From positions 1 through 41,452 of IMG/VR virus record IMGVR_UViG_3300047483_000438: a DNA stretch of 41,452 nt; one strand, given 5' to 3'. Shown in pieces: positions 3,813 through 19,416 of the stretch. How positions within the stretch are numbered: position 1 is the first letter of the stretch; each line of letters begins with the position of its first letter. The DNA is from a virus. The notes under the pieces are model-generated. The model made no database searches and had not been told where the DNA came from. It saw nothing but the letters and a program-made list of their open reading frames with translations. A program made the position numbers and the translations under genes.

Positions 3813-4925
3813 ATGTCGAAAGACTCTGGTATGACTGAGAATCGCACTGTAACGGCACTAACTGCTCGTAGGGCCATTATCAAGTGTTTTAAGAAACAAC
3901 GACCCCTGTTCCTGTGGGGTCCTCCGGGTATTGGTAAGAGTGAGCTGGTAGCCAGCATTGCCAAAGACTTGGGTGGTTTGATGATTGACCTGCGTTTGGC
4001 ACAGATGGAACCCACTGATCTGCGTGGTATTCCTTATTACAACAAGGACAATGGTTTGATGGATTGGGCTCCTCCCATTGACTTGCCCAGCGAAGAATTG
4101 GCCAAACAATATCCTGTAATCTGTTTGTTTCTTGATGAAATGAACAGTGCTGCGCCCAGCATTCAGGCTGCAGCCTATCAGTTGGTTTTGAACCGTCGAA
4201 TCGGCAAGTATACACTGCCCGACAATGTGGTTGTGATTGCCGCTGGTAACCGTGAAACTGACAAGGGTGTGACTTTCCGCATGCCTGCTCCGTTGGCTAA
4301 CCGTTTCGTTCACTTGGAAATGCGAGTTGATCACGAATCGTGGGAACAATGGGCTACCCTTAACAAGATCAATTCTGAAGTAGTTGGTTACATTGGTTTT
4401 GCCAAACAGGATCTCTACGACTTTGATCCCCGTAGTTCCAGCCGTGCTTTCGCTACTCCTCGTTCGTGGACTTTTGTCAGCGAGTTGTTGGAAGATGATG
4501 ACTGCACTGACAGCGAATTGACTGATTTGATTTCCGGTGCAGTGGGCGAAGGTGTTGCAATTAAGTTTATGGCACACCGCAAGGTTGCTGGTCAATTGCC
4601 CAAGCCTGCTGACATTCTGTCAGGCAAAGTCACTGACCTCAAAGTCAAAGAAGTTTCGGCTATGTACTCGCTGACTGTGAGTCTCTGCTATGAACTTCAG
4701 GACTATATCCAAAGTGTCAAAGGCAAACCTGACGAAAAGTTCCACAGCATGGCAGATTGTTTCTTCCGTTACATGATGGACAATTTCACTACAGAATTGA
4801 CTGTCATGGGTGCTCGTGTTGCACTGACTACCTACAACTTGCCTTTCGTGCCTGGTAAACTCAAACACTTTGATGAGTTTCATAAGCGGTTTGGCAAATA
4901 CATTGTAGCCGCTAACAGCAAGTAA
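3813..4925 (+). CDS. MoxR-like AAA+ ATPase
   Basis: 370 residues. Walker A GPPGIGKS is at 36-43, Walker B CLFLDEMN at 104-111, and a sensor-1 region AAGNR at 143-147. A PLANRF segment near 160-165 lies where the arginine finger is expected. The segment between Walker A and B (PTDLRGIPYY) is typical of MoxR/RavA-type ATPases, which act as chaperones with von Willebrand A (VWA) partners. The VWA-like gene at 5647 is such a partner and is separated only by two small genes and a promoter. The start has a strong AAGGAG seven bases before it. ATPase family firm; role in virion maturation or host control is inference. Confidence 0.88.
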   Translation: MSKDSGMTENRTVTALTARRAIIKCFKKQRPLFLWGPPGIGKSELVASIAKDLGGLMIDLRLAQMEPTDLRGIPYYNKDNGLMDWAPPIDLPSEELAKQYPVICLFLDEMNSAAPSIQAAAYQLVLNRRIGKYTLPDNVVVIAAGNRETDKGVTFRMPAPLANRFVHLEMRVDHESWEQWATLNKINSEVVGYIGFAKQDLYDFDPRSSSRAFATPRSWTFVSELLEDDDCTDSELTDLISGAVGEGVAIKFMAHRKVAGQLPKPADILSGKVTDLKVKEVSAMYSLTVSLCYELQDYIQSVKGKPDEKFHSMADCFFRYMMDNFTTELTVMGARVALTTYNLPFVPGKLKHFDEFHKRFGKYIVAANSK

Positions 4926-4929
4926 TCAT

Positions 4930-4969
4930 TTACGGGGGCAGGGCTTATGCTTTCTCCCGTAAGTCCCCC
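4930..4969 (+). other. Two mutually exclusive hairpins after the ATPase gene
   Basis: TTACGGG (4930-4936) can pair with CCCGTAA (4956-4962), a 7-bp stem. Alternatively GGGGG (4934-4938) can pair with CCCCC (4965-4969). Both use the same G run, so only one can form. No T-run follows, so it is a poor rho-independent terminator; it could be a partial attenuator or an mRNA 3' end stabiliser. Confidence 0.35.
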
Positions 4970-4989
4970 TACTTACACTGAGATCAGCC

Positions 4990-5283
4990 ATGACCATTAA
5001 ATGCGTTAAACTAGACAGCAGGTACAAGGGTTCCGATCGATTTGCCTATAGAATTGAAGTTTACGGCCATGCAGAGGAAAGAATTCCTTTATTTGCAGCA
5101 CTGTTAAAATGGTCTGTGGAGACTTGGGGCATGAGTGTGCCCATTGACATTTACAAGACCAGTATAAAATTTGACAGAAACCCACACTGGGCTTGGCACG
5201 AAGGCAATGATGATTGGGACGGAGTTTACATTTACCTTGCCACAGATAAAGAACGAGAACTATTCACTTTGAAATGGCTGTAA
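4990..5283 (+). CDS. LRW-motif small protein (array member 1)
   Basis: 97 residues. First protein in the window with the shared ending: ...DKERELFTLKWL. The middle carries LLKWSVETWGMSVPIDIYKT, the W-x3-4-[TF]-[WF]-G pattern seen again in many array members. It is separated from most of the array by the VWA gene, so the family was either split by insertion or seeded twice. It has no strong SD. Function unknown. Confidence 0.65.
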   Translation: MTIKCVKLDSRYKGSDRFAYRIEVYGHAEERIPLFAALLKWSVETWGMSVPIDIYKTSIKFDRNPHWAWHEGNDDWDGVYIYLATDKERELFTLKWL

Positions 5284-5284
5284 A

Positions 5285-5581
5285 ATGCGCAGCAGATTCC
5301 ATCAAGTTGACAGGGATAGTAAAAATAATATTGTCTATATCGAAGACGACTTTAACCTCTACGGCCGTAGAGGTTACCTCTACGGCGGAATAAAAACTGT
5401 GACAAACGATGCCGAAAATGTAATATTATGGTTTCGTAAAATCTACGGTGACAAAGTTCGTGTTGTCTATAGAGACACCGAAATGCAGTGGTGGGAGATA
5501 GTAGAAAAAGAAACTTGGATGGGCAAAGGTATTGGTTTCGAACCCTGGAACGGCCTGGCTTGGTCTTTTCTTAAAAATTAA
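5285..5581 (+). CDS. Small hypothetical protein, divergent LRW-array member
   Basis: 98 residues, starting two bases after the previous stop. It keeps the central pattern (ENVILWFRKIYGDKVRVVYRD) but ends WNGLAWSFLKN instead of the Leu-Arg-Trp motif. Near its start it encodes NLYGRRGYLYGG, which comes from a 24-base perfect palindrome plus a repeat unit. Function unknown. Confidence 0.6.
   Translation: MRSRFHQVDRDSKNNIVYIEDDFNLYGRRGYLYGGIKTVTNDAENVILWFRKIYGDKVRVVYRDTEMQWWEIVEKETWMGKGIGFEPWNGLAWSFLKN
5353..5376. repeat. 24-bp perfect palindrome inside a coding region
   Basis: The left arm TAACCTCTACGG is followed directly by its exact reverse complement CCGTAGAGGTTA. The unit ACCTCTACGGC (5355-5365) recurs at 5376-5386 as a direct repeat. 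It may form a cruciform or RNA hairpin, or be a protein-binding site. Confidence 0.8.
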
Positions 5582-5594
5582 TACTCAAGTATTA

Positions 5595-5623
5595 ATGACA
5601 CAAATTGCAATTTCTGTTATAAT
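5595..5623 (+). promoter_or_regulatory. Sigma70-type promoter (ATGACA-17-TATAAT) before the VWA gene
   Basis: -35 ATGACA at 5595-5600 and -10 TATAAT at 5618-5623, spacer 17. The spacer contains the perfect palindrome AAATTGCAATTT (5602-5613). Just upstream lies TAATACTCAAGTA (5579-5591), which also occurs at 3154-3166, at nearly the same distance from the -35 there (16 and 17 bases). Confidence 0.75.
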
Positions 5624-5646
5624 ATATACATTAACAAGGAGCACAA

Positions 5647-6933
5647 ATGGCAAATTCAGACAGTAAACAAAAAGGCATTGGCGGCAGACTAACTGACAAC
5701 ACAGACCCTGCCCTTGACCGTGCAGTGCGTGAAAAATTGACCACTGCTAGAATTGGTCTGTTGCTTAAAGCACCTTTCTTTGGTAACCTTGCTACTCGCT
5801 TGCAATTGGTTAATGCTGACACTTGGTTGACCACTGCGGCCACTGACGGTCGCAAGTTCTATTACAATACTGACTTTGTCAACAAACTCAAACCCAAAGA
5901 GCTTGAGTTCTTGTTTGGACACGAAGTCCTGCACAATGTCTATGACCATATGGGTCGTAATGGTGACCGTGACCGCAGGCTGTTTAATTGTGCGGCTGAC
6001 TTCTGTGTCAATGCAGATTTGATTGAACAACGAATTGGTGACAAGATCACTCCCTGCCTGTATGACGCCAAGTACAAGGGCTGGTCAGCTGAAGAAGTCT
6101 ACGATGACCTTTACGAAAACGCTGAAAAGATTGACATCGGCGACCTGCTGGATCAATTGCTGGACGAGCATTTGGATGGCGAAGGCGACGGTGATGGTGA
6201 CAGTGATGGCAAAGACGGCGACCAAGAAGGCAACGGCCGGGGTCGTCCCCGTCTCAGCAAAGAAGAACGACAGGCCATCAAAGATGAAGTTCGCGAAGCA
6301 CTGTTACAGGCCGCACAGGCCACTGGTGCTGGTAACTTGCCCGCAGGTGTTAAGCGACTGATTAAAGACTTGACCCAACCTGTGGTCAATTGGCGTGAAC
6401 TTCTGGAGCAACAGATCCAAAGTACCGTTAAAAACGACTTTACTTGGATGCGTCCCAGCCGTCGTAGTTGGCACTTGGATGCTGTGATGCCTGGTATGAT
6501 TCCGGGTCAACAGATTGATGTTTGCATTGCCATTGACACTTCGGGTTCAATTGGTGAAGAAGATATTAAAGCATTCATGGCTGAGATCAAAGGCATTATG
6601 GAAGCCTACGATGAGTATAAACTGCAAGTGTGGAGTTTTGACACTGAAATTTACAATCATCAGGTCTTTAGCAGTGACACGCTGGATGACATCATGACTT
6701 ATCAACCCGAAGGTGGTGGCGGCACTGACTTCATGGCCAATTGGGAATACATGAAGGCCAATGATATTCAGCCCAAAAAGTTCATTATGTTTACTGACGG
6801 TATGCCCTTTGGTGAATGGGGCGATGCTGAATACTGTGACACGGTGTTCATTATCAAGGGCAATGAACAGGCTGAACCGCCTTTTGGTGTTTGGGCTATC
6901 TACGAGCGTGCCAAGGCTTTGGCCAAGGCCTAA
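5647..6933 (+). CDS. VWA domain / HExxH metallopeptidase-like protein (DUF2201 type)
   Basis: 428 residues. The N-terminal half has HEVLH at 92-96 with a further His at 101, a zinc-peptidase-like HExxH, followed by NCAADFCVNADL. An Asp/Gly-rich linker (about 176-200) leads to a C-terminal VWA-like domain. That domain has the MIDAS motif DTSGS at 297-301, a GGGGTDF loop carrying the MIDAS Thr, and a late FTDGMP. This is the layout of the putative metallopeptidase plus VWA family DUF2201, commonly found next to MoxR ATPases. With the ATPase at 3813 it should form a two-part chaperone or remodelling system. AAGGAG (5636-5641) sets the start. Domain calls are firm; substrate unknown. Confidence 0.85.
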   Translation: MANSDSKQKGIGGRLTDNTDPALDRAVREKLTTARIGLLLKAPFFGNLATRLQLVNADTWLTTAATDGRKFYYNTDFVNKLKPKELEFLFGHEVLHNVYDHMGRNGDRDRRLFNCAADFCVNADLIEQRIGDKITPCLYDAKYKGWSAEEVYDDLYENAEKIDIGDLLDQLLDEHLDGEGDGDGDSDGKDGDQEGNGRGRPRLSKEERQAIKDEVREALLQAAQATGAGNLPAGVKRLIKDLTQPVVNWRELLEQQIQSTVKNDFTWMRPSRRSWHLDAVMPGMIPGQQIDVCIAIDTSGSIGEEDIKAFMAEIKGIMEAYDEYKLQVWSFDTEIYNHQVFSSDTLDDIMTYQPEGGGGTDFMANWEYMKANDIQPKKFIMFTDGMPFGEWGDAEYCDTVFIIKGNEQAEPPFGVWAIYERAKALAKA

Positions 6934-7199
6934 TGCTGGCATTCTTTGACTTTGGTTGCGACCCAATGCGTAAACTGTATCGTATACTGCAACATTCAAA
7001 GCAACCTTTTACGGTCACAGTGACCTTTTATGTGCCCGACACTTCAAGGCCACAGATCTACAATCAGTCTATAGAAGATGTAATTGATGAAATGGTTGCT
7101 TGGTGTCGAGACCGTGATTGTGGTCGCAGGGTAGCTTATGATATGTTTACATTTCGTAATAGGCCTGAACTGTCGATGTTTTTATTGAGATGGGCATGA
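6933..7199 (+). CDS. LRW-motif small protein
   Basis: 88 residues from ATG 6933, which shares a base with the VWA gene's stop (TAATG). An AAGG at 6925-6928 supports this start over upstream frames. Central DEMVAWCRDRDCGRR matches the array's W-C-x3 pattern; the ending is ELSMFLLRWA. It is the first gene of the main array. Function unknown. Confidence 0.7.
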   Translation: MLAFFDFGCDPMRKLYRILQHSKQPFTVTVTFYVPDTSRPQIYNQSIEDVIDEMVAWCRDRDCGRRVAYDMFTFRNRPELSMFLLRWA

Positions 7200-7486
7200 A
7201 AAAGAAACGGTTGTTAACTGATAAATCTGGTATGCTACAAGAACAGATGCTAGCAAGCATAGTCCAAGAATATGCCAATGAAGTTGATGCCCAAGTATTA
7301 TTTGACATGTTAGAAGAAATTGGTTGGATAAGAGTAGTTTGCAAAACACCCTTGCTAACAGAACAAAGGCAAGAAATTGATAAATGGATCAAAGACAATG
7401 TCAAAGGCCGCATAGAAAATCGTGGGCCAACTTGGATGTTTAAAGACAGCAAAGATGCATGTGCATTTATTTTGAAATGGACTTAA
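7196..7486 (+). CDS. LRW-motif small protein
   Basis: 96 residues. ATG 7196 overlaps the previous stop (ATGA) behind TTGAGATGGGC, a variant of the array junction. It has a longer helical N-terminal half (LQEQMLASIVQEYANEVDAQ) than most members. The typical C-terminal half follows: EIDKWIKDNVKGR, then the ending DACAFILKWT. Function unknown. Confidence 0.7.
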   Translation: MKKKRLLTDKSGMLQEQMLASIVQEYANEVDAQVLFDMLEEIGWIRVVCKTPLLTEQRQEIDKWIKDNVKGRIENRGPTWMFKDSKDACAFILKWT

Positions 7487-7487
7487 A

Positions 7488-7826
7488 ATGAACTGTAAAA
7501 TTTTAATGGTCGTCGCAAGTGTGCTGATTGGTGGTTGCAGCACTATTCCTGCTCAAACTGTTGAAAGTTGGGAATATGTACCTGAACCAATTCAAGTTCA
7601 AAAACGCAGAGATCAAACTCGCAGTATTAATTGGCTGCAAGTGCCTAACGATCAATTGCAACAGATTTGCGAACGAGTTACCAAAGGTAGATTTGGAAAT
7701 AAAAAGATTGCAGGCTGTGCATCTTGGGTTGGCAACAAATGCACGGTAATTACTGGCATGAATACTACAACCAGTAATTTAGGTCATGAAATTAGGCACT
7801 GCTATGACTACGACTTCCACGACTAA
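7488..7826 (+). CDS. Lipoprotein with HExxH motif
   Basis: 112 residues. A short hydrophobic signal (2-16) ends in a lipobox with Cys at 17 (LIGGC), so it is probably lipid-anchored. Near the C-terminus GHEIRH (99-104) followed by His 111 (HCYDYDFH) looks like a zinc-binding HExxH with a third His. Four further cysteines (61, 77, 85, 105) could form disulfides outside the cytoplasm. It is the only secreted-type gene in the array. Phage lipoproteins often act in lysis (Rz1) or in blocking superinfection; neither is shown here. The alternative is a non-catalytic periplasmic protein that has kept the motif. Confidence 0.75.
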   Translation: MNCKILMVVASVLIGGCSTIPAQTVESWEYVPEPIQVQKRRDQTRSINWLQVPNDQLQQICERVTKGRFGNKKIAGCASWVGNKCTVITGMNTTTSNLGHEIRHCYDYDFHD

Positions 7827-8016
7827 AGAACCGCATAAAAGGTTGTACAGGTTACCTCAACAGAGTTTTGAGTCTGCTAAAAATATTTTAGACTGGTGTA
7901 CAGCAACATTTGGTCCAAGACGGTATGGCGGTCCTTGGGAATATAACGCCGTTTACCACGATGTTGTTATCTACGGCGACAAAAATATCATGTTGTTTGA
8001 ACTGCGATGGCTTTAA
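7804..8016 (+). CDS. LRW-motif small protein
   Basis: 70 residues from ATG 7804, chosen because AGG at 7794-7796 sits seven bases before it; ATG 7786 has AGG only two bases away. It overlaps the lipoprotein gene by 23 bases. It shows the family pattern clearly: NILDWCTATFGPRRYGGPW, a strand (VVIYGDKN), and the ending IMLFELRWL. Confidence 0.65.
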   Translation: MTTTSTTKEPHKRLYRLPQQSFESAKNILDWCTATFGPRRYGGPWEYNAVYHDVVIYGDKNIMLFELRWL

Positions 8017-8243
8017 CACACATACATCAGAGCCAACTGCGGCGTTTGGTCAAGGCTCACAATCCCGAGATCGTCAGCAACCACGATCAAGACTTCACAG
8101 AGTGGATGGAACAGAATGTGGGAGTATTCACCCAGGACTGGGGCCGCATCTACGATCTCGATCAAGCACAATCTACCTACGGCACCACTTGGTGGGTGTT
8201 AGATCCTGCCAAAGCAACACTAACATTGCTGAGGTGGGCGTGA
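8007..8243 (+). CDS. LRW-motif small protein
   Basis: 78 residues. Its ATG is formed out of frame from the Arg-Trp codons (CGATGG) of the previous gene's ending, without a clear SD. Central DFTEWMEQNVGVFTQDWGR; ending DPAKATLTLLRWA. Its C-terminal third is clearly homologous to an orphan coding remnant at 13117-13221, so it or a close copy has been a recombination donor. Confidence 0.65.
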   Translation: MALTHIHQSQLRRLVKAHNPEIVSNHDQDFTEWMEQNVGVFTQDWGRIYDLDQAQSTYGTTWWVLDPAKATLTLLRWA

Positions 8244-8461
8244 AAAATACCGTAATGATTCCCATGAAGCATAGATTCGTCCATGATTCAAAAGGCAGCC
8301 CAGTCTGGTGGCAGTGGTGTATAGAAACGCTGGGACCTCCAAACAACAGTCAGTGGGGTATTCCTGCCAGCCAACACTATTGGAGATTGGAATCCAGTGG
8401 TGCCGCTATATGGTTCGCCAATCCTGCCCATGCTACTTTGTTTGCCTTGAGGTGGTCATGA
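8240..8461 (+). CDS. LRW-motif small protein (GTG start)
   Basis: 73 residues. GTG 8240 is chosen because it sits exactly where the junction normally has ATG (GAGGTGGGC-GTGA). ATG 8255 would lose this coupling. The pattern WWQWCIETLGPPNNSQWG is followed by HYWRL and the ending AHATLFALRWS. A longer frame upstream reads through two neighbours and is not real. Confidence 0.65.
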   Translation: MKNTVMIPMKHRFVHDSKGSPVWWQWCIETLGPPNNSQWGIPASQHYWRLESSGAAIWFANPAHATLFALRWS

Positions 8462-8685
8462 TTAAACAACTGCCTTATGGTGTACAAACTGATAAAAAGA
8501 TTTTGCATCGAGCCGAACCATGGTGTAGAGACCAGTGGGGGCAAAGATGGGACCCGGTACGCAATCGTGCAGGTTCTTGGTGTGTATTTTGGGGAGGTAA
8601 CAGTGTGACAATGATACCTTATCATTACCAATGGTGGTTTGCAACTGAACAACAACAAACATTGTTTATGTTGAGGTGGTTATGA
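8458..8685 (+). CDS. LRW-motif small protein
   Basis: 75 residues. It begins in the first exact copy of the 15-base junction (8447-8461). Very Trp-rich: AEPWCRDQWGQRWDP, then GSWCVFWGG and QWWFATEQQQTLFMLRWL. Function unknown. Confidence 0.7.
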   Translation: MIKQLPYGVQTDKKILHRAEPWCRDQWGQRWDPVRNRAGSWCVFWGGNSVTMIPYHYQWWFATEQQQTLFMLRWL

Positions 8686-8870
8686 AAATTTATCAAGTTC
8701 CCGGATATCCACGTAGTCATTACTTTGTTAAAACATTCTCAGAGTTATTGGAAATTGCATCTTGGGCATACAAGAACAATGTGGGATTACTGCATGAATC
8801 TAGTACCATTCATGGTTACGGGTTCAGCATTAAACAAAACTTTGAATGGTTTGTACTGAAGTGGTTATGA
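8682..8870 (+). CDS. LRW-motif small protein
   Basis: 62 residues, one of the shortest members. ATG 8682 follows GAGGTGGTT. The core LLEIASWAYKNNVGLLHES lacks the Cys after Trp. The ending is NFEWFVLKWL. Confidence 0.65.
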   Translation: MKIYQVPGYPRSHYFVKTFSELLEIASWAYKNNVGLLHESSTIHGYGFSIKQNFEWFVLKWL

Positions 8871-9058
8871 AACTTCCAAGAAATCCTGTAAACGGCTGGG
8901 TTGTTGCAAGTGTGCAAAGTCCTGAATTAAACAGTTGGTTACTGTGTTGTAACTGGTGTAGATCTAATTTCAAACACGCAAATTGGCGTTATGTAGGTGC
9001 AGGTGTATTTGAGTTTAGGCGAGTAGACGATTACATGATGTTTATGTTGAGGTGGTAA
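8867..9058 (+). CDS. LRW-motif small protein
   Basis: 63 residues. ATG 8867 follows GAAGTGGTT. The core WLLCCNWCRSNFKHANWRY has three cysteines. It ends MMFMLRW with no residue after Trp, because the stop is TAA and forms TAATG with the next start. Confidence 0.65.
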   Translation: MKLPRNPVNGWVVASVQSPELNSWLLCCNWCRSNFKHANWRYVGAGVFEFRRVDDYMMFMLRW

Positions 9059-9312
9059 TGACCGTAACTTATAAAACAAACAAGGCATGGCCCGGGGTCA
9101 AGTTTCCGGTGTTGCACAGAGTTGTCTACGCTCACACCACAAATGGAGTACGGGCTGCGTACCAAAGAAGTTACAAGGACCATTTGGTCGATGCTTGGCT
9201 TAAAGAAAACTGCCACAATCCTTACTATCATAGTCCCGGTTATCTTGAAGAAAAGTTCATTGAGTTTGAATGTGACGAGGACGCTGTGTTATTTGCGTTG
9301 AGGTGGGCATAG
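9058..9312 (+). CDS. LRW-motif small protein
   Basis: 84 residues. TAATG coupling to the gene before. The core HLVDAWLKENCHNPYYHSPG is followed by a very acidic strand (EKFIEFECDEDAVLFALRWA). It ends in TAG, which shares its G with a GTG start for the next gene. Confidence 0.65.
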   Translation: MTVTYKTNKAWPGVKFPVLHRVVYAHTTNGVRAAYQRSYKDHLVDAWLKENCHNPYYHSPGYLEEKFIEFECDEDAVLFALRWA

Positions 9313-9584
9313 TGTCGCAATTAGCAAGGCATCGTGTGTTGCATGACCGTTATATGAATTTATATCTAGGACCTAGATATCTAGGAATGGTTGTAGCAGT
9401 TGATCATGACTGGATCAAAACATTTGCCCTACTGCCACACAAAACAATTAGCAACAAATATGTATGGTTGAAAAAAATCTATGTTCGCAGAGTATGGGTA
9501 TATACTGGCTTTATAGACGAACCTGAAACACAATATGCTGAACTTTTTGACATTCTTCAAGACCAAGTACAAAGCTTACTGTGA
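9312..9584 (+). CDS. Small basic protein in the array, no LRW motif
   Basis: 90 residues from GTG 9312 (TAGTG overlap); GTG 9303 would start upstream of the junction. It has a different build from its neighbours: LGMVVAVDHDWIKTFALLP, then KYVWLKKIYVRRVWVYTGF and an acidic C-terminal helix (YAELFDILQDQ). It is rich in aromatics and basic residues, without a clear membrane helix. Function unknown. Confidence 0.55.
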   Translation: MSQLARHRVLHDRYMNLYLGPRYLGMVVAVDHDWIKTFALLPHKTISNKYVWLKKIYVRRVWVYTGFIDEPETQYAELFDILQDQVQSLL

Positions 9585-9963
9585 TGAACGCACTCTAAAA
9601 AAGAGTGGGTTTAGTTCTTGGAAAGCTTACCATCGATGGCATGATCCCGATGTGCAGCAAGGGGCTACGATAATTAAAGATTTTTATCACGGCTACCCCT
9701 TTGTATATGTCTGTGACAACTACAACCACTACTGTTATAAATTACTAGCAGACTATGGACCCGGTGGTCAACGATATGGCTTGCACGATATTCAGGATTG
9801 GCTTACAGACAATCACTCCAACAAAGTGCGTTGGGACACGCATCGTGTCATATATGGTCGTTATCATGGTTGGGAAATAAATGAAATAGGCGGCGGAGAC
9901 TATATGTTCTTTGCTTTTAAAAATGAACAAGATTATGCTATGTTTATGTTGAGGTGGTCATGA
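9535..9963 (+). CDS. LRW-motif protein with extra N-terminal domain
   Basis: 142 residues, the longest array member; it overlaps the previous gene by 50 bases. An N-terminal part (about 1-75) reads DERTLKKSGFSSWKAYHRW, then DPDVQQGATIIKDFYHGYPF. It is followed by a typical array domain: DIQDWLTDNHSNKVRWD and the ending DYAMFMLRWS. It looks like a fusion of a conserved phage domain with the array module. ATG 9535 is the only reasonable start. Confidence 0.65.
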   Translation: MLNFLTFFKTKYKAYCDERTLKKSGFSSWKAYHRWHDPDVQQGATIIKDFYHGYPFVYVCDNYNHYCYKLLADYGPGGQRYGLHDIQDWLTDNHSNKVRWDTHRVIYGRYHGWEINEIGGGDYMFFAFKNEQDYAMFMLRWS

Positions 9964-10292
9964 CACAATACATTAAAGATGATAAAAAAGCCAGTCGCAT
10001 GATGTGGGATGCTGGCCTGGGAGGCGGCGGCCCTTGGGTACATTGTGCCTGTGGTAAAGATCATAGTCAGACTGATGAAGAATTTGAAGAGTTGGGCGGC
10101 TTTAGATATATTGAATTGGGCGGACTGCTGTTCGTAGATGACTGCGATGGATGCCAACAACATCTACTGAAATATGAAAATTTTATTTGGCAGAATCGAG
10201 ACACTATCCGACGCTATCTAAAAATTCGTATTGATCAGGAAAAAGCATGGGCCGATCAAGAGCATTTGTTAAACACATTGGCAGATATTTGA
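9960..10292 (+). CDS. Small protein with possible zinc-binding Cys/His cluster
   Basis: 110 residues. It starts at an exact junction copy (9949-9963) but lacks the LRW ending. HCACGKDH and, after a loop, DDCDGCQQH give a C-x-C-x3-H ... C-x2-C set that could bind one zinc. The C-terminal third is a charged helix (RRYLKIRIDQEKAWADQEHL). It ends in ...ADI, and the junction sequence that follows is non-coding here. Confidence 0.65.
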   Translation: MTQYIKDDKKASRMMWDAGLGGGGPWVHCACGKDHSQTDEEFEELGGFRYIELGGLLFVDDCDGCQQHLLKYENFIWQNRDTIRRYLKIRIDQEKAWADQEHLLNTLADI

Positions 10293-10303
10293 GGTGGTCA
10301 TGA
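10289..10303 (+). repeat. Array junction 15-mer in a position where it codes no LRW peptide
   Basis: The exact 15-base junction TTGAGGTGGTCATGA occurs here, but the upstream gene reads it in another frame and stops at its TGA (10290-10292). Only its SD-plus-start part is used, for ATG 10300. Confidence 0.85.
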
Positions 10304-10617
10304 TAACTAGTATTTGGTACGACAGTGAAGATAAATTACCTGAAAAAGAAGGTTATTATCTTGGCTACAAAATACCTACTTTGGGCGACGACGAGGAAGG
10401 ATTTGGTTTATATTATTGGGGAACTTATTATCGTCAGTGGCGTGGAAATATATCTACTCATTCGCCAACAATTTTTATAAGTTTTTGGTGTGAAACGCCG
10501 GATATAAAATATCCTATGAGTCAGCAATTGATGCCCACTGATGCAGAAATAGATGCTTGGAAAAATGTACAAGATGCTATTTCAAAATACAACATGATCA
10601 AAAATTTAGTGCAATGA
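10300..10617 (+). CDS. Small hypothetical protein, no LRW motif
   Basis: 105 residues from ATG 10300, which uses the orphan junction's GAGGT as SD. The N-terminal part, SIWYDSEDKLPEKEGYYLGY, resembles small phage 'DUF551-like' proteins with the pattern W-(x)-LP-E-x-G-x-Y; this is a weak resemblance. It has an aromatic middle and a helical end. Its stop overlaps the next start (ATGA). Confidence 0.6.
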   Translation: MITSIWYDSEDKLPEKEGYYLGYKIPTLGDDEEGFGLYYWGTYYRQWRGNISTHSPTIFISFWCETPDIKYPMSQQLMPTDAEIDAWKNVQDAISKYNMIKNLVQ

Positions 10618-10994
10618 GTAAATTTGAAATTCACAGCTTATATAAATTGCCGTCAGGTCAATACTGGCCCATGGGACTTAATCTCTGGCAAAAACTTTGG
10701 TGGCGTTTTATTCCTGGTGTTGTTATTAAAGTTAAATGGCCCCGGGGCAACATTGTAGTTGATCACAATGATCCACGTTGGGTCGACTTAGGCGGTGCTG
10801 TTTGGGTAGATCTAGGATTTAGTGCAGATCCCAATGATCATTACCGTTGGTATTTGGAAAAACATGTGGGTCGACAAGGGTGGGATTGGAATTGGGGACT
10901 AGCAGATCGGGACGCCACTGACGATTGCCTTACCATAAAGATTAGACGAAAATATGCTGATCATGCTACAATAATGGCATTGCAGTGGAGTTAA
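10614..10994 (+). CDS. LRW-array protein with distinct N-terminal domain
   Basis: 126 residues. N-terminal 60 residues: FEIHSLYKLPSGQYWPMGLN, LWWRFIPGVV and VVDHNDPRW(V)DLGGAVW. This part is repeated with high identity in the gene at 12918. The C-terminal part is Trp-rich and ends TIMALQWS, a weakened motif. The last codons (CAG TGG AGT TAA) provide a GGAG for the next gene's non-ATG start. Confidence 0.65.
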   Translation: MSKFEIHSLYKLPSGQYWPMGLNLWQKLWWRFIPGVVIKVKWPRGNIVVDHNDPRWVDLGGAVWVDLGFSADPNDHYRWYLEKHVGRQGWDWNWGLADRDATDDCLTIKIRRKYADHATIMALQWS

Positions 10995-10996
10995 CT

Positions 10997-11209
10997 TTGG
11001 GTAATCATATATTTGTTCAAAAAGGTCGGGTGGCACTTGTGGGCGATGAGCGTGATGTTGCTGTGAAAAGTCAGCATCGTATGGCAGTATGGGAATGGTG
11101 CGACAAAAATAAAATTAAATTGGAATACCAAGGTACACTAGACAGAACAGACCTATGGCGTGTAAAAGATGACCAGCAGCGTAGCTGGTTTATTTTGAGG
11201 TGGGCATGA
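10997..11209 (+). CDS. LRW-motif small protein (non-ATG start)
   Basis: 70 residues from TTG 10997, six bases after TGGAG. GTG 10985 in frame would add four residues inside the previous gene. The pattern HRMAVWEWCDKNKIKLEYQG is followed by DLWRVKDD and the ending RSWFILRWA. Confidence 0.6.
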   Translation: MGNHIFVQKGRVALVGDERDVAVKSQHRMAVWEWCDKNKIKLEYQGTLDRTDLWRVKDDQQRSWFILRWA

Positions 11210-11502
11210 AAGGTCCTGTTAAGATTTTAGGACATACTGTTCCCTTGATCAATAAAAAACAGCCAGAAACTTGGCAGTCATACCTGCGTAGACTGGGCAA
11301 TGGTATCAATGGCTTAGCAGAAAGAAGCAAAACTTTAACTGAAGAGCAAATCGTGGCCAACGCATATAAATGGATGCAGATCAAATATCCTGGTGCCTAC
11401 ACCGTAGAGCTGATTTGCAATGCTGACAAAATGAAATGGGATTTGCGATTAAAGTTTGAAGATGCTCAAGAAGAAACTATATGGTTATTGAGGTGGTCAT
11501 GA
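11206..11502 (+). CDS. LRW-motif small protein
   Basis: 98 residues. It starts at the variant junction GAGGTGGGCATGA. The longer N-terminal helix is polar and basic (SYLRRLGNGINGLAERSK). The core VANAYKWMQIKYPGAYTVE leads to the ending EETIWLLRWS. Confidence 0.7.
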   Translation: MKGPVKILGHTVPLINKKQPETWQSYLRRLGNGINGLAERSKTLTEEQIVANAYKWMQIKYPGAYTVELICNADKMKWDLRLKFEDAQEETIWLLRWS

Positions 11503-11705
11503 GAGAGCTTAAAAAAGATCTTTGGCCTTACAGAGTCACTGTTAACAGTGATTGGCTGAGTGATATTACGCCCATAGAAATTTGGTTAGGTGAACAGCTG
11601 GGCACTTTTAAAGGCCGTTGGAATGTTGTTTATAGGCATAATCGTACTGATTTTTATTTTAGATTCAGCGACGATGCTACATTATTTGCATTAAAGTGGT
11701 CATGA
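11499..11705 (+). CDS. LRW-motif small protein
   Basis: 68 residues. It starts at an exact junction copy (11488-11502). It is close to a minimal family domain: IEIWLGEQLGTFKGRWNVVY, then FYFRFSDDATLFALKWS. Good for a family alignment seed. Confidence 0.7.
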   Translation: MRELKKDLWPYRVTVNSDWLSDITPIEIWLGEQLGTFKGRWNVVYRHNRTDFYFRFSDDATLFALKWS

Positions 11706-11986
11706 AAGTTCGAGATACTATGAAGATTGACAAGATTTTCTACACCCTCGATCAAAAAATCTTGAACTTCATGTACGATCAAAAGGTTAGGTATACCGGA
11801 AATTGGGAATCAATACAGTATATCAAGAAAAACTTCCCCAATTGGCAGTACACAGGAGTAGCACCTTTTGATGATGTGTTAGACTGGTGTGAAAAGACAT
11901 TTGGAAACGATTTTCTTTGGAACCATGAAACAATTTATTTTAAAACTGATCAAGATAAAATGTTGTTTGCATTGAGGTGGTCATGA
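11702..11986 (+). CDS. LRW-motif small protein
   Basis: 94 residues; ATG 11702 follows AAAGTGGTC. A Lys/Tyr-rich N-terminal part precedes VLDWCEKTFGNDFLWNHETI and the ending DKMLFALRWS. Its core W-C-x2-T-F-G matches those of the genes at 7804 and 14112. Confidence 0.7.
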   Translation: MKVRDTMKIDKIFYTLDQKILNFMYDQKVRYTGNWESIQYIKKNFPNWQYTGVAPFDDVLDWCEKTFGNDFLWNHETIYFKTDQDKMLFALRWS

Positions 11987-12162
11987 CTAGAGTAATAATA
12001 ACTGATCGTATCACATGGTGGGAACGGTTTCACTGGATTATGCAGAAATGTGAGACAGCGAGAGATAACACCAATTGGGCTATGTGGCAACTTGGACTGA
12101 GTGATATTGAGTTTTCTATGTCAGAAAAAGATGCTATAATGTATTATTTGTTGTGGTCATGA
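11983..12162 (+). CDS. LRW-motif small protein (shortest)
   Basis: 59 residues, starting at an exact junction copy (11972-11986). FHWIMQKCETARDNTNW is followed by SMSEKDAIMYYLLWS. The motif Arg is replaced by Leu; the junction then reads TTGTTGTGGTCATGA, so the SD for the next gene is lost along with Arg. Confidence 0.65.
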   Translation: MTRVIITDRITWWERFHWIMQKCETARDNTNWAMWQLGLSDIEFSMSEKDAIMYYLLWS

Positions 12163-12371
12163 AATTCTGGAACAAAGACAAAGAAGTACGACGCAGATGC
12201 TGGACTAAGGTAGAAAGACCACAGCAAGGGTTACATGTTGGCAATCTAGAATTAAAAAGATGGTGCCAGCAACAGCCCAGCACTGGTAAATTTTATTACT
12301 ACTATGGAACAGAATCCTGGTGGTTTGAGCACAGCAAAGATGCTATGTTATTTGTATTGAGGTGGTCATGA
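12159..12371 (+). CDS. LRW-motif small protein
   Basis: 70 residues. Basic N-terminus (KDKEVRRRCWTKVER). ELKRWCQQQPSTGKFYYYYG leads to the ending DAMLFVLRWS. It starts behind the junction that lost its GAGGT, so it depends mainly on the ATGA overlap. Confidence 0.65.
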   Translation: MKFWNKDKEVRRRCWTKVERPQQGLHVGNLELKRWCQQQPSTGKFYYYYGTESWWFEHSKDAMLFVLRWS

Positions 12372-12661
12372 TTAATCGTAAACAATTTCGACAACTGTTT
12401 AATAATAAGAGAAACGGTTTAGGCGATTGGGACAGTCCCTTATGGTTACCAGAACAGTATAATAACCATGAACCCAGTAGATGGTTTGTAAATATTAGAC
12501 CCTTAGGTGTTCATAACTTTTATACAGAATTTTGGGCATGGGCAAATGAAACCTGCCGAGGCCAAGTTTTATGCTATAGTAGCAGCAATGAAAAACAAGA
12601 AGAATGGTGGGGATTTACACATCGTGCCGACGTTGTTTGGTTTTTGTTGAGGTGGGCATGA
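12368..12661 (+). CDS. LRW-motif small protein, copy 1 of a duplicated pair
   Basis: 97 residues, closely matching the gene at 13218 over its whole length (same length, shared blocks INRKQFRQLFN, PSRWFVNIRPL, EEWWGFTHRADVV). It ends VVWFLLRWA. Cys-containing middle: TCRGQVLCYSSSNEKQEEW. It starts at an exact junction copy (12357-12371). Confidence 0.7.
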   Translation: MINRKQFRQLFNNKRNGLGDWDSPLWLPEQYNNHEPSRWFVNIRPLGVHNFYTEFWAWANETCRGQVLCYSSSNEKQEEWWGFTHRADVVWFLLRWA

Positions 12662-12921
12662 ATCGATTAGAATGGGACACAGATACCTATCGTGCTATAA
12701 GAAAGAATTTCGAAAGTTCTTATAATTGGCATTTGCCGGTGGGAATTTATAGAACTAACTTTGCAGAAGAATTAGAAAAACACTCGGGTAAAATTGTTCG
12801 AGTAAGGAAGTTAACTTCTATAGAAGACGAAATTGTTGATATGCTAGGGATGAATTTTAACTATGAAATTCAATTTGCAAACGAACAGTTATACATGATG
12901 TTTTTGTTGAGGTGGGCATGA
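12658..12921 (+). CDS. LRW-motif small protein
   Basis: 87 residues between the duplicated pair. It starts at GAGGTGGGCATGA. The N-terminal half is less like its neighbours (DTYRAIRKNFESSYNW, LEKHSGKIVRVRKL). The C-terminal half keeps the strand and the ending YMMFLLRWA. Confidence 0.65.
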   Translation: MNRLEWDTDTYRAIRKNFESSYNWHLPVGIYRTNFAEELEKHSGKIVRVRKLTSIEDEIVDMLGMNFNYEIQFANEQLYMMFLLRWA

Positions 12922-13142
12922 GTAGATTAGAAATCAAAAGTTTATTTCGATTGCCTTCGGGTAGATATTTACCCTGTGGGCTGAACATTTGGCAACAACT
13001 TTGGTGGCGTTTTATGCCCGGTACGGTGATCAATGTGCGATGGCCGTCAGGTGAAATTGTTGTCGATCACAATGATCCTCGGTGGCATGACATAGGTGGC
13101 GCAGTTTGGGTAAATTTGGGGCAGAACTTACAATCTCGATAA
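12918..13142 (+). CDS. Truncated chimera of a 10614-like gene
   Basis: 74 residues. Residues 1 to about 65 follow the N-terminal domain of the gene at 10614 closely (LEIKSLFRLPSGRYLPCGLN, LWWRFMPGTV, VVDHNDPRW). The frame then runs into unrelated codons (QNLQSR) and stops. The DNA just past the break codes, in the +1 frame, for the C-terminal third of an 8007-like protein. It is therefore a recombination product whose frame was lost; it may still be translated as a short protein. Confidence 0.65.
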   Translation: MSRLEIKSLFRLPSGRYLPCGLNIWQQLWWRFMPGTVINVRWPSGEIVVDHNDPRWHDIGGAVWVNLGQNLQSR

Positions 13143-13221
13143 ATCACATCCGGCCTACGGCTGCTCTTGGTGGTTCCGTGATCCTAAGATGGCTACTTTA
13201 ACTATATTGAGGTGGTCATGA
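13117..13221 (+). pseudogene. Out-of-frame C-terminal remnant of an LRW-motif gene
   Basis: Reading from 13117 gives 34 codons: WGRTYNLDKS, HPAYGCSWWF, RDPKMATLTI and LRWS, then TGA. It aligns over its whole length with the end of the gene at 8007 (WGRIYDLDQ..., KATLTLLRWA). It has no start of its own, and a TAA lies just upstream in this frame (13111-13113). Its last 15 bases are an exact junction copy and still serve as SD and start for the gene at 13218. Confidence 0.75.
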
Positions 13222-13511
13222 TAAATCGTAAACAATTTCGTCAACTGTTTAATAGTTATAAACCAGGATTAGGTGAGTTTGATAGTCCGTTATGGTATTC
13301 AGAACAGCAGGGCGATTGTAAACCCAGTAGATGGTTTGTAAATATTAGACCCTTAAATCATCAAAACTTTAAGACAGAATTTTGGGCATGGGCAAATAAA
13401 ACTTGTCAAGGTCAACTTTTGTGTTATAGTAGTAATACAGAAAATCAAGAGGAATGGTGGGGATTTACACATCGTGCCGACGTTGTTTTATTTTTACTGA
13501 AGTGGAGTTAA
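13218..13511 (+). CDS. LRW-motif small protein, copy 2 of a duplicated pair
   Basis: 97 residues, paralogue of the gene at 12368. Differences cluster in 15-37 and in the middle (NTENQ instead of SNEKQ). It ends VVLFLLKWS followed by TAA, and the TGGAG in its last codons is the SD for the next gene. Confidence 0.7.
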   Translation: MINRKQFRQLFNSYKPGLGEFDSPLWYSEQQGDCKPSRWFVNIRPLNHQNFKTEFWAWANKTCQGQLLCYSSNTENQEEWWGFTHRADVVLFLLKWS

Positions 13512-13513
13512 TT

Positions 13514-13900
13514 ATGACTGATGATATCAATAATGTCAACAATTTCTGCAGAAAATACCATGCAACTGTGCGCCCTAACGGTGACTATCAGCGTAGAACA
13601 CTGCAAGTCCCACTTAAACAAAATGCAGAATTTTACAACGACTTTGAATTAAGTTATCGTAATATTCCAATGTTAGAAATAGTAATGCCCGAGGATAGCT
13701 TTGGATATTTGCTTGAGAGTCAAAATCATATTCAAACGCTTATAAGCAGAACTCCCGATTCTTACTCGGGCTATATGTACAAAGACATTGCCATGCAGAT
13801 TGTTGAACGCGAAGACGCAGAAATTAGACTGCGTAATCAACATCCGGGACTGAAAGATCTATATAACCAATATCAAATGATGTTGCAGTTAGTACGATGA
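13514..13900 (+). CDS. Conserved phage protein in the array, no LRW motif
   Basis: 128 residues from ATG 13514 (TGGAG before it). Beta-rich N-terminal part, then a helical C-terminal end (EREDAEIRLRNQHPGLKDLY, NQYQMMLQLVR). I associate that end with a conserved T4-like phage hypothetical; unchecked. No catalytic motif. Its stop overlaps the next start (ATGA). Confidence 0.7.
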   Translation: MTDDINNVNNFCRKYHATVRPNGDYQRRTLQVPLKQNAEFYNDFELSYRNIPMLEIVMPEDSFGYLLESQNHIQTLISRTPDSYSGYMYKDIAMQIVEREDAEIRLRNQHPGLKDLYNQYQMMLQLVR

Positions 13901-14121
13901 CTGATTTGTTTCACAATGCCAAAGACTATAAATTTTTGGTTGCGCCAAATTATCTCACTGATCATGAGTTATTGATCATATTGACTAATATTAAGTTTTG
14001 GAATGAATACTATGATGATTTGGACGCATGGTGTCGAGAAAATCGCAGTCAAAGACAGGGCATGACTGTGGTCTTGCCTGATGCCGAAACACTAACATTA
14101 TTTTGCCTACGATGGACATAA
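13897..14121 (+). CDS. LRW-motif small protein
   Basis: 74 residues. The core YYDDLDAWCRENRSQRQG precedes the ending TLTLFCLRWT. Its final Arg-Trp codons (CGATGG) contain the ATG of the next gene, as at 8007. Confidence 0.7.
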   Translation: MTDLFHNAKDYKFLVAPNYLTDHELLIILTNIKFWNEYYDDLDAWCRENRSQRQGMTVVLPDAETLTLFCLRWT

Positions 14122-14294
14122 TCATTAGTGAAGGCAAAGTGTTTGGCGCTCGTTATCTAACAGCAGAACCTAAAGTGTCGTCATGGGATTTAGATGGTGA
14201 CTGGGGAGGTATAAACATATGGGAACAAATGGAAGATTGGTGTACTGAAACATTTGGTGTATCAGAAGGTGCTTTTGAACCTAGTCAACGATAG
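14112..14294 (+). CDS. LRW-motif gene interrupted by an in-frame TAG
   Basis: 60 residues up to TAG 14292-14294. It has the usual core (EQMEDWCTETFGVSEGAF) but stops before the C-terminal strand and motif. Reading on in the same frame restores the full family end, so the gene is a recent nonsense mutant or a readthrough product. Its ATG comes from the CGATGG of the previous gene. Confidence 0.6.
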   Translation: MDIIISEGKVFGARYLTAEPKVSSWDLDGDWGGINIWEQMEDWCTETFGVSEGAFEPSQR

Positions 14295-14366
14295 TACTGT
14301 AATCGTGCAAGATTCTGGTTCAGAGAGAAAAAAGATTTAGAATGGTTTATTATGCGTTGGAGCTAA
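14295..14366 (+). pseudogene. Same-frame C-terminal tail after the TAG
   Basis: Twenty-three codons directly after the TAG read YCNRARFWFREKKD, then LEWFIMRWS and TAA. This is the missing end of the gene at 14112. No frameshift is needed to join them. Confidence 0.75.
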
Positions 14367-14395
14367 TTGACACAAATTCAATTTGGCTATATAAT
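14367..14395 (+). promoter_or_regulatory. Perfect consensus sigma70 promoter (TTGACA-17-TATAAT)
   Basis: -35 TTGACA at 14367-14372 and -10 TATAAT at 14390-14395, 17 bases apart. The spacer begins with the 13-base palindrome CAAATTCAATTTG (14373-14385). It directly follows the last array codon and starts a new operon; SD AAGGAG lies about 14402-14407. Confidence 0.9.
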
Positions 14396-14706: not shown

Positions 14707-15173
14707 AAAAAATCTTTTATGAAAAAGTAGGCCGTAAGTATGTGCCAGTACAGGAGTATGATGAATACCTGATGGACAGTTTTCCCAAGGGCAGTCATCT
14801 TGTGATGTGTTATCCTGCAGGTGAAAGTAGAGTTTATAATATAGACCCTAACTATGCTGCTATGATTGCCGCCGGTCGTGTGGCTGCTGATGCTATGTGT
14901 CGGGCCATTAGAGAAGCCAGCGAAATGCAAAAAGAAAAATACGGTAATCGCGCCTTGACCAATGAACAGTTAGCAGCATGGAATCATTTTATTGAAGTCA
15001 TGGGCGAAAGCGGTCGTTATATTCATTACAACAGCATTCGCGACATCGCTGAGGTTGGCCTTAAAGCCTTAGAAGCCGAAGCTGTTAAGTTGATGCAACA
15101 CGAAACAGTTCGTGCTGCCTATGAACAATTTTTAACTGTAGTTGAACTCTGTAAGGAGCAAAATCGTGCTTAA
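14703..15173 (+). CDS. Conserved phage hypothetical protein
   Basis: 156 residues, ATGA-coupled. The N-terminal block FYEKVGRKYVPVQEYDEYLM, then DSFPKGSHLVMCYPAGES and YNIDPNYAAMIAAGRVA, are strongly conserved-looking. The C-terminal two-thirds is helical. It resembles widely distributed phage proteins of unknown role. Confidence 0.75.
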   Translation: MKKIFYEKVGRKYVPVQEYDEYLMDSFPKGSHLVMCYPAGESRVYNIDPNYAAMIAAGRVAADAMCRAIREASEMQKEKYGNRALTNEQLAAWNHFIEVMGESGRYIHYNSIRDIAEVGLKALEAEAVKLMQHETVRAAYEQFLTVVELCKEQNRA

Positions 15174-15456
15174 ATACGGTGAAGTCAATCCCTTAAATGT
15201 ATTTGGCCTGAGACGGCTGGATCACTGCCCGCCCCACTTTATTGAAGTCAAATACAAGCTACAGTGCAGTGAGAAAAAGATCACAGATTGGATCATTGAA
15301 AATTTGGAAGGTCGCTTTTATGCCGGCGACAGTTATATGGAAGAAAATGACCATATTCATATGGTCAAAAGTGCGGCTTTTGAAATCCCGGGTGAAGCCA
15401 GCATGTTTGCGCTAATTTTGGACAAATTAAATACCTGGGAAATGAATTTAAGCTAA
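15166..15456 (+). CDS. Conserved small phage protein
   Basis: 96 residues from GTG 15166, set by AAGGAG at 15153-15158 with seven bases of spacing; TTG 15142 lies upstream of that SD. The core KKITDWIIENLEGRFYAGD is followed by a hydrophobic end (EASMFALILDKLNTW). It recalls the array proteins in layout (Trp helix, then a hydrophobic strand) but lacks the LRW ending. It may be a distant relative. Confidence 0.65.
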   Translation: MLKYGEVNPLNVFGLRRLDHCPPHFIEVKYKLQCSEKKITDWIIENLEGRFYAGDSYMEENDHIHMVKSAAFEIPGEASMFALILDKLNTWEMNLS

Positions 15457-18471: not shown

Positions 18472-19416
18472 ATGAAATCAAAAAATAAAGAATTAATTTT
18501 ATTTGTAGGCGATACCGACGAACAGCTTGCAATGACTGCATTAGCCTATGACATAAATGCAAGTTTGCTTACTCAAGATAATTTTGTCAAAATTCAGCAC
18601 GGCGTTTATTACACCTCTATTGCTGATCTAGGAGACAAACTTAATTTTTATAAAGTATTGTGTAAATCGAATAAAATATTTTATTGCCCACCTAAAAAAT
18701 GGACTAGTGAAATAATGGAAAAATATACAATAGAATATTTGACTGAATTTTCTTATTATAAAACTGTTATTAATTTTGAAAGGCCCGAGTTATCAAAAAC
18801 ACACAGCAAAATGTTATCTTTAAAAGATCATAGAAAAACAAATAAAAAACAAATATGGATTGCCGGGTGTAGTGTAAGTGATGGTTGGCAAGTTTCAAAA
18901 ACAGAAAGATATGGGCATTTAATTCACCAGGCACTCAAATTACCTGTGTCTTTTTTGACACATCCTAATTCATCAATTCAATGGGCCGCAGATCAAATTT
19001 TAAGATCAAATATTATAAAAGATGACATCATTTTTTGGGGGATAACATCTTTAGGCAGAACACAGTGTTGGGATGAAGACAAAGATAACTTAGAACATAT
19101 TAATATTAATTCATATAAACATAACAAATATGCTTATAATTTTTTTGACAAAAAATATCTTTACAGTGAAACAAATCATTATCATGCATTAATTGCAATA
19201 CACCAAGTAGTTAATTACTGCAAAGCTGTTAAAGCCAAACTTATTCCGGGAATAATAATGCAAGGAATAGATAAATGGCATGAAATACCAAATTGTATCG
19301 ATTTTACTTCATTGTTTAACCGTGTTGATTGTACTGATGATGGCAAACATCCAGGAGCACAAACGCATAAACTTTATGCAGAATTTTTTTTAGAAAAGTA
19401 TAAATCTCTTTTATGA
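18472..19416 (+). CDS. SGNH/GDSL-type hydrolase-like protein
   Basis: 314 residues from ATG 18472; TTG 18454 is also open. The C-terminal two-thirds has IWIAGCSVSDGWQ (Ser of the GxSxS-like block at about 132-138), then RYGHLIHQALKLPVSF. Near the end comes DDGKHPGAQTH, giving the D-x2-H-like Asp/His pair (about 290-293). This is the layout of SGNH esterases, which often deacetylate sugars. The N-terminal 110 residues are unrelated and not recognised. Codons look richer in A/T than in the neighbours (not computed), a hint of separate origin. It overlaps the epimerase by ATGA. Confidence 0.65.
   Translation: MKSKNKELILFVGDTDEQLAMTALAYDINASLLTQDNFVKIQHGVYYTSIADLGDKLNFYKVLCKSNKIFYCPPKKWTSEIMEKYTIEYLTEFSYYKTVINFERPELSKTHSKMLSLKDHRKTNKKQIWIAGCSVSDGWQVSKTERYGHLIHQALKLPVSFLTHPNSSIQWAADQILRSNIIKDDIIFWGITSLGRTQCWDEDKDNLEHININSYKHNKYAYNFFDKKYLYSETNHYHALIAIHQVVNYCKAVKAKLIPGIIMQGIDKWHEIPNCIDFTSLFNRVDCTDDGKHPGAQTHKLYAEFFLEKYKSLL

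Follow-up and report, generated by a model that had tools for sequence, protein, structure and literature searches.

A tandem array of small phage genes with a shared LRW ending that doubles as the start signal of the next gene

Cluster K mycobacteriophages carry an element named SAS (sequence GGGATAGGAGCCC), which has been proposed as a possible recombination target (PMC3203893). In Bacillus phage G, a jumbo phage, a lineage-specific expansion has brought a zinc-ribbon family to about 35 copies (PMC7824862). Here we describe an array of small genes at positions 4990–14366, plus strand, of the IMG/VR virus record IMGVR_UViG_3300047483_000438; "the window" denotes this entire contig of 41,452 bases. 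The array genes encode what profile searches identify as one previously unnamed phage protein family, called LRW after its C-terminal residues, and the DNA of that ending also supplies the start signals of the following gene. The LRW junction shares with SAS the character of a short, near-identical, oriented DNA element with ribosome-binding features before many gene starts; SAS, however, precedes many unrelated gene families and has no shared C-terminal protein motif described (PMC3203893), whereas the LRW junction also encodes the C-terminus of members of just one protein family, and the cluster K sequence itself is different. The likeness to phage G lies in the great expansion of one small family in a jumbo phage, but the zinc-ribbons are another family, and the passage on them describes no tandem coupled array, shared junction motif or pieces of core proteins (PMC7824862). 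Within the open-access literature no known system was found that joins all the features reported below; the function put forward for the array is an inference.

The junction motif (TTGAGGTGGTCATGA) reads in codons TTG AGG TGG TCA TGA, that is L-R-W-S-stop, and contains both a Shine-Dalgarno sequence (GAGG, five bases 5' of the ATG) and the overlapping ATGA of the next gene. On the plus strand of the window this pattern was counted 17 times, against 0.32 expected. Because the junction unites a Shine-Dalgarno sequence with the start of the next gene, the array genes are predicted to be translation-coupled. In relatives, once open reading frames (ORFs) caught by the search pattern itself had been removed, the Arg of the motif is encoded by AGG in 119 of 172 cases (69%) where the next start lies at −4 and in 47 of 50 (94%) where it lies at −1, while AGG makes up 8.8% of Arg codons in the rest of the same genes. 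When the next start lies at −10, the codons become CGA, AGA or AAA followed by TGG, which spells the ATG of the next gene; in the window, the gene at 8007 has its start codon within the CGATGG of the preceding gene's RW codons. LRW or LKW is retained with CGA, CGT, AAA or AGA codons also where no downstream site requires it. Codon choice therefore follows the next gene and the amino acids are kept regardless, so that protein and DNA constraints are both real, and the motif is partly DNA-imposed because it contains the ribosome-binding site of its neighbor.

The window encodes 22 intact small ORFs of 59–142 aa between 4990 and 14121, in agreement with the count and lengths given by an earlier sequence-only reading of this DNA; there are also two frame-broken copies. 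The L-[RK]-W end that this reading took to be common to all is present in 20 of the 22 (with zero or one further residue), the others ending LQWS (10614–10994) and LLWS (11983–12162). A looser scan for the end motif gave 29 matches on the plus and 4 on the minus strand, those on the plus strand lying almost all within the array. The genes form a tandem array, but not the unbroken row first described: seven unrelated genes interrupt it (5285–5581, a VWA gene at 5647–6933, 7488–7826, 9309–9584, 9960–10292, 10300–10617 and 13514–13900). Two of these, 9960–10292 and 10300–10617, are flanked by copies of the junction motif, so that a cassette slot can hold a non-family gene. E values in the following list are from a hidden Markov model (HMM) built from the C-termini of 494 members on other contigs, the window and its close relative L003 being left out; AlphaFold (AF2) scores are the predicted local distance difference test (pLDDT) and predicted template modeling score (pTM).

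4990–5283, plus strand: member 1, ending FTLKWL, between the MoxR ATPase and VWA genes (E 1.5e-4)
6966–7199, plus strand: member 2, ending FLLRWA (E 4.1e-9)
7196–7486, plus strand: member 3, ending FILKWT, with an 'EID'-type N-terminal helix (E 1.9e-10)
7804–8016, plus strand: member 4, ending FELRWL, start possibly at 7786 (E 1.5e-6)
8007–8243, plus strand: member 5, ending LLRWA (E 2.4e-9)
8240–8461, plus strand: member 6, ending FALRWS, GTG start (E 1e-11)
8458–8685, plus strand: member 7, ending FMLRWL (E 0.0057)
8682–8870, plus strand: member 8, ending FVLKWL (E 3.3e-4)
8867–9058, plus strand: member 9, ending FMLRW (E 5.7e-10)
9058–9312, plus strand: member 10, ending FALRWA (E 6.2e-11)
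9535–9963, plus strand: member 11, ending FMLRWS, 142 aa, with a helical N-terminal extension (E 2.6e-11; AF2 pLDDT 86.6)
10614–10994, plus strand: member 12, ending MALQWS, divergent (ORF and alignment; no match to the independent HMM)
10985–11209, plus strand: member 13, ending FILRWA (E 2.7e-9)
11206–11502, plus strand: member 14, ending WLLRWS (E 0.0015)
11499–11705, plus strand: member 15, ending FALKWS (E 6.9e-12; AF2 pLDDT 89.9, pTM 0.77)
11702–11986, plus strand: member 16, ending FALRWS (E 3.9e-12)
11983–12162, plus strand: member 17, ending YYLLWS (E 0.039)
12159–12371, plus strand: member 18, ending FVLRWS (E 4.8e-11)
12368–12661, plus strand: member 19, ending FLLRWA, close paralogue of 13218–13511 (E 4.6e-6)
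12658–12921, plus strand: member 20, ending FLLRWA (E 1.2e-7)
12918–13221, plus strand: frame-broken chimera, its tail ending TILRWS in the other frame (tail E 2e-7)
13218–13511, plus strand: member 21, ending FLLKWS (E 2.3e-5)
13897–14121, plus strand: member 22, ending FCLRWT (E 5.4e-9)
14110–14366, plus strand: frame-broken member, ending FIMRWS (intact counterpart in L003, 8886–9149)
18126–18452, plus strand: candidate distant member outside the array, ending YYMLKWGKP (E 0.15)

Of the 22 intact ORFs, 20 were matched by this HMM at E<=0.006, the strongest at 3.9e-12; real ORFs scored up to 41.9 bits, and the best of 12,740 shuffled ones reached 12. An iterated search seeded with the protein of 11499–11705 gathered 280 members from 95 loci, nine of them in the window. 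The fetched loci hold 713 HMM matches, 571 of which have an L[RK]W end, a family-wide frequency skewed upwards by the collection of loci through the DNA of the motif; some subfamilies have orthologues common to up to 24 loci. Two further window genes, 15142–15456 and 2278–2652, gave weak profile matches (E 0.03–0.06) and do not carry the LRW end; they are possibly older relatives.

Structure prediction covered two members. AlphaFold, run on 107 aligned members, modeled 11499–11705 as strand-helix-strand-strand-helix, and 9535–9963 shares the C-terminal α-β-β-α core and adds extra strands to its helical N-terminal extension; the unrelated folds that could have been expected from a chance ending were not seen. 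The predicted domain comprises about 60 aa in β-α-β-β-α order, with a Trp in helix 1, a C-terminal helix of the form D-x3-F-x-L-R-W whose end is the LRW motif, and an optional N-terminal extension. The Trp-[Cys/Leu/Ile/Met] core noted from the translations alone is the first helix, and its W is invariant in the window alignment. The (near-)invariant residues, namely this W, an F in the last strand and the F-x-L-R/K-W of the last helix, are putative core-packing positions, and the profile also holds conserved F at −13, E at −10 and D at −8. Trp makes up about 5.9% of family residues, compared with 0–3% in seven neighboring genes.

These results bear on whether the LRW ending might be a mere by-product of ribosome-binding sites lying in gene ends, and not a sign of homology. 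AGG TGG is itself a Shine-Dalgarno sequence and the choice of Arg codon tracks the next start, as such a view would have it. The retention of LRW/LKW under codons that serve no downstream site, the conserved residues at −13, −10 and −8 and in helix 1, the single predicted fold and the occurrence of the same residues in Sinorhizobium phage Phosso nevertheless refute it as a full explanation, and as such we regard it as highly improbable; it holds as a partial one. The shared ending, first offered simply as a family mark, thus stands on homology found by an independent HMM but is in part imposed by the ribosome-binding site of the next gene.

No named domain accounts for the family. At most 1 of 107 members matches any family in Pfam, PHROGs, NCBIfam or PADLOC at E<=0.01; the PDB gave no sequence match, Foldseek gave none at E<=0.001, and all fold matches have E>0.1. 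Individual candidates were rejected: the T4 late-transcription coactivator gp33 (PF16805; one Phosso member at 13.8 bits against a cut-off of 25), the LAGLIDADG homing endonucleases (I-DmoI, Foldseek E 0.23–1, TM about 0.4) and Rpb8 (a weak single match below cut-off). Net charge averages −1 (spread −7 to +5), and on this ground DNA mimicry and strong nucleic-acid binding were set aside. The same data weigh on the idea that the proteins are nucleic-acid-binding regulators akin to the zinc-ribbons of phage G. Jumbo phages do contain large same-fold expansions of putative DNA-binding proteins (PMC7824862), and weak Foldseek matches include DNA/RNA-binding proteins such as I-DmoI, but the members are not basic, every PDB fold match has E>0.1 and no conserved basic surface was identified; we consider such a role quite unlikely.

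Comparison with L003, which shares about 95% identity with the window across most stretches of the array that the two have in common, reveals the turnover of whole cassettes: L003 has seven extra ones and lacks several found in the window. Of 14 alignment break points between the two, 11 are no more than 15 bases away from a junction motif, where 1.7 would be expected; none of 100,000 random sets was as extreme. The following junction is also informative.

10289–10303, plus strand: junction motif TTGAGGTGGTCATGA, out of frame with the upstream ORF 9960–10292 (comparison with L003)

Here the two sequences are unrelated 5' of the motif and homologous 3' of it, and the motif reads as a scar left by recombination that has kept its function for the next gene. 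At 12918–13221, a front like that of 10614 is joined out of frame to a tail like that of 8007. Free shuffling of N- and C-terminal halves within the family was rejected: among pairs with high C-terminal identity it is rare, at 8 of 187, and most of these cases are distant homologues. The pooled ratio of nonsynonymous to synonymous substitution rates (dN/dS) against L003 orthologues is 0.23 for array genes and 0.11 for their neighbors, which denotes purifying selection; diversifying selection was not seen. A mostly neutral expansion, in which junctions drive tandem duplication and DNA capture and the proteins do little or nothing, would fit the recombination at the junction motif, the two frame-broken copies and the chimera at 12918–13221. 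It is improbable in our judgment, given the pooled dN/dS, the retention of C-terminal residues despite codon changes and of N-terminal motif peptides under different synonymous codons (see below), and the orthologous subfamilies common to up to 24 loci.

The family is not confined to the window. An 18-base form of the motif occurs in at least 120 viral stretches of IMG/VR, with up to 30 copies per record, and the arrays lie on a single strand in 99 of 100 loci. Bacterial and archaeal genomes (257 Gb) yielded 21 single matches, about the level expected by chance, just one of which belongs to a true array, on a 6.4-kb contig of the Bacteroidetes metagenome-assembled genome UBA11400 that is mostly LRW array; this is probably a phage contig mis-binned into the genome, and possibly a hint at a host. 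Single-sequence tblastn searches for cultured relatives gave nothing convincing. The profile alone recovered them, with matches at E<=1 in Phosso (PV764938; 43, about 33 of them at E<1e-3), Agrobacterium phage Atu_ph07 (MF403008; 8) and PA5oct (MK797984; 3), and none in RaK2 or S-TIM54. The proteins of the three phages, which belong to the same family by profile search, are annotated as hypothetical only, and no reference to paralogues of this kind turned up when the papers describing Atu_ph07 and the related Sinorhizobium phage AP-J-162 were searched as text. Phosso has runs of hypothetical-protein genes ending DAMLFKL[RTA]W; compared with the window, its genes are scattered over several clusters and their endings are more varied (KLAFG, KLTWS).

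In other phages, the variable N-termini of members include pieces of core phage proteins; this feature, like the dual role of the ending as the start of the next gene and the spread through large phages, was absent from the sequence-only reading. The T4-like major capsid protein gp23 (PF07068) is unrelated to the LRW domain itself, but its profile is matched above the curated cut-off by array ORFs of seven records (G032, G021, G036, G008, G031, G004 and G025; E down to 2.0e-12), mostly at profile positions 2–55. Segments 2–55, 124–223 and 305–354 were found as N-termini, the third in Phosso XYS97328.1 (E 6.6e-6; z 8.9 against the phage's own capsid protein). The PHROG 'major head protein' matches 6 of 63 long members. 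When 456 N-termini were compared by blastp with 515 other ORFs of two large genomes, the capsid protein alone was hit at E<=1e-3, by seven N-termini, and shuffled and reversed controls gave none. As a profile, the 'EID' type of N-terminal helix matches capsid helix 195–220 (E 4.9e-5; next target 0.14, best reversed 0.23). The capsid pieces in these phages are, by sequence comparison, statistically solid. A non-LRW ORF of Phosso (182169–182855) also has a capsid-arm piece, 5' of its annotated start (PF07068 E 4.6e-10; z 14.6 against the phage's own capsid protein), and such pieces are therefore not limited to LRW genes.

Other putative pieces are shorter and less well supported. Those from helicases are moderate (DnaB_C E 7e-4 in one N-terminus), and the support for the NrdA NLCxE[IV], PolB and lysin motifs, all of them short, comes from how often they occur compared with shuffled sequence; for NrdA the count is 8 against 0.04, the copies not all being independent, and HMM searches gave no detection of pieces this short. 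Two different motifs are joined in seven N-termini. Within one C-terminal subfamily (KYKFSRAKW..PDAWSRW), the fronts are capsid, NrdA plus capsid, or helicase plus NrdA, and the subfamily stands twice side by side in one genome. Since the motif peptides are kept with differing synonymous codons, it is the peptides and not the DNA that are conserved, and retention of core-gene pieces as DNA (homing sites, antisense) was rejected on the same ground. One N-terminus (L114, 908–1321), in which a lysin motif (FKGRGTIQITGR) and a P-loop (GRQTGKS) meet at a common GR, suggests fusion where the two were identical over a very short stretch. NrdA genes in two other records are interrupted: in G021 (4300–6800) apparently by an intein at NLC|CEI, with an intein-like ORF end and a next ORF that starts LVHNCEILL, the same motif recurring in several array N-termini; and in G026 (57500–62200) between YQSNLC and ALCTLG, both motifs being found in array N-termini elsewhere.

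Two explanations take these pieces as their starting point. If the members were virion accessory proteins, assembled in or on the particle and docking through capsid-like N-termini, this would account for the pieces of capsid arm and helix that several relatives carry and for the large, putatively co-expressed set sharing one fold, but NrdA, helicase, PolB and lysin pieces would make no sense for docking, and the annotated neighbors concern mostly replication, nucleotide metabolism and nucleases rather than structure; we rate this explanation, too, as improbable. Alternatively, the common domain would display short peptides copied from core phage proteins at their most recognisable points (the capsid arm, capsid helix, NrdA NLCxEI site, helicase P-loop, PolB motifs and lysin motif), as decoys saturating the sensors by which the host detects these proteins or as blockers of the proteins of a rival phage, and coupled recombining cassettes would allow rapid exchange of the peptide set. 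Bacterial immune systems are documented to respond to capsid proteins: Lit through the Gol peptide of gp23, and likewise CapRel (PMC9712102) and CmdTAC (PMC11618068). A displayed capsid peptide could, however, itself trigger Lit, CapRel or CmdTAC, and decoys would therefore need altered peptides. Such mimicry is unlikely, if somewhat less so than docking on the virion.

We consider it reasonably probable that the locus is a polycistronic, translation-coupled array of one family that supplies small binding proteins early, as a recombining repertoire, for host takeover or counter-defence. In this mechanism, the last codons of each gene would provide the Shine-Dalgarno sequence and ATGA of the next and so couple translation along the row; the identical short junction DNA would let whole cassettes be gained, lost, duplicated and fused by recombination with coupling intact; the row would be read from host-type (σ70) promoters as an early accessory operon; and its products would form a shifting set of small binding proteins against host or competitor targets. 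We are highly confident of the anatomy (family, fold, coupled junction and cassette turnover), and more tentative, leaning slightly to doubt, about a role as early accessory binding proteins in takeover or counter-defence. The two best promoter-like matches of the region, both consensus matches only, are as follows.

5595–5623, plus strand: promoter-like ATGACA-17-TATAAT with TG before the −10 element (11 of 12 positions), ahead of the VWA gene and of the main run
14367–14395, plus strand: perfect σ70-type TTGACA-17-TATAAT, directly after the array

Their positions fit an early operon read by host polymerase, as a lead only, since the scan as a whole barely exceeds shuffled sequence. Several observations count against the proposed repertoire. 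Promoter-like matches total 31 against 24.9 in shuffles; the run of family genes is broken by several non-family genes; a dN/dS of 0.23 carries no arms-race signature; and PADLOC shows no defence link, anti-defence libraries having lain outside the search. Window N-termini moreover lack a solid match to core phage proteins: no window ORF matched the Gp23, NrdA or DnaB profiles at E<=10, and the sole candidate, the EID-subfamily member at 7196–7486, has a lone match to the capsid helix that is weak (z 4.4) and at most suggestive. Function, operon, early timing, binding and targets are inferences. The diversified effectors envisaged from the translations stand as an accessory set with one fold, variable N-termini, turnover, purifying selection and promoter-like sites, but their part in takeover or anti-defence is still conjecture; a modular multi-subunit assembly, also suggested there, is neither supported nor excluded.

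The window also encodes, as assigned by sequence, an RNase H-like exonuclease, a MoxR-type ATPase, a VWA protein, DHFR and thymidylate synthase, and beyond 21 kb it has a minus-strand cluster. It is probably a piece of a large T4-related phage, because the closest cultured matches of its ATPase are in Pseudomonas jumbo phages (PA5oct and relatives), followed by Phosso and Atu_ph07. Six adjoining minus-strand ORFs of 400–470 aa (27180–35116) are radical-SAM-like (CxxxCxxC), and glycosyltransferase-like ORFs come next. Taken together with aminotransferase and epimerase genes at 19413–21466, they resemble, by sequence, a peptide or glycan modification cluster. Genes beside arrays in other contigs encode helicases, ribonucleotide reductase, exonuclease, phosphoesterase and homing endonucleases, and an overlapping pair of ORFs with no assigned role (PHROG 11758/11058) adjoins arrays in about 10 contigs (for example L005, 5325–6600, and L006, L122, L085 and L108).

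One fold thus accounts for many of the small hypothetical genes in the 'dark matter' of jumbo phages, with more than 30 in a single cultured phage. The row can grow and still be translated, since the end of the protein, the ribosome-binding site and the point of recombination all coincide in one 15-base element. If the core-protein pieces carried at N-termini do act on host sensors or on rival phages, they would represent a new mode of phage warfare.

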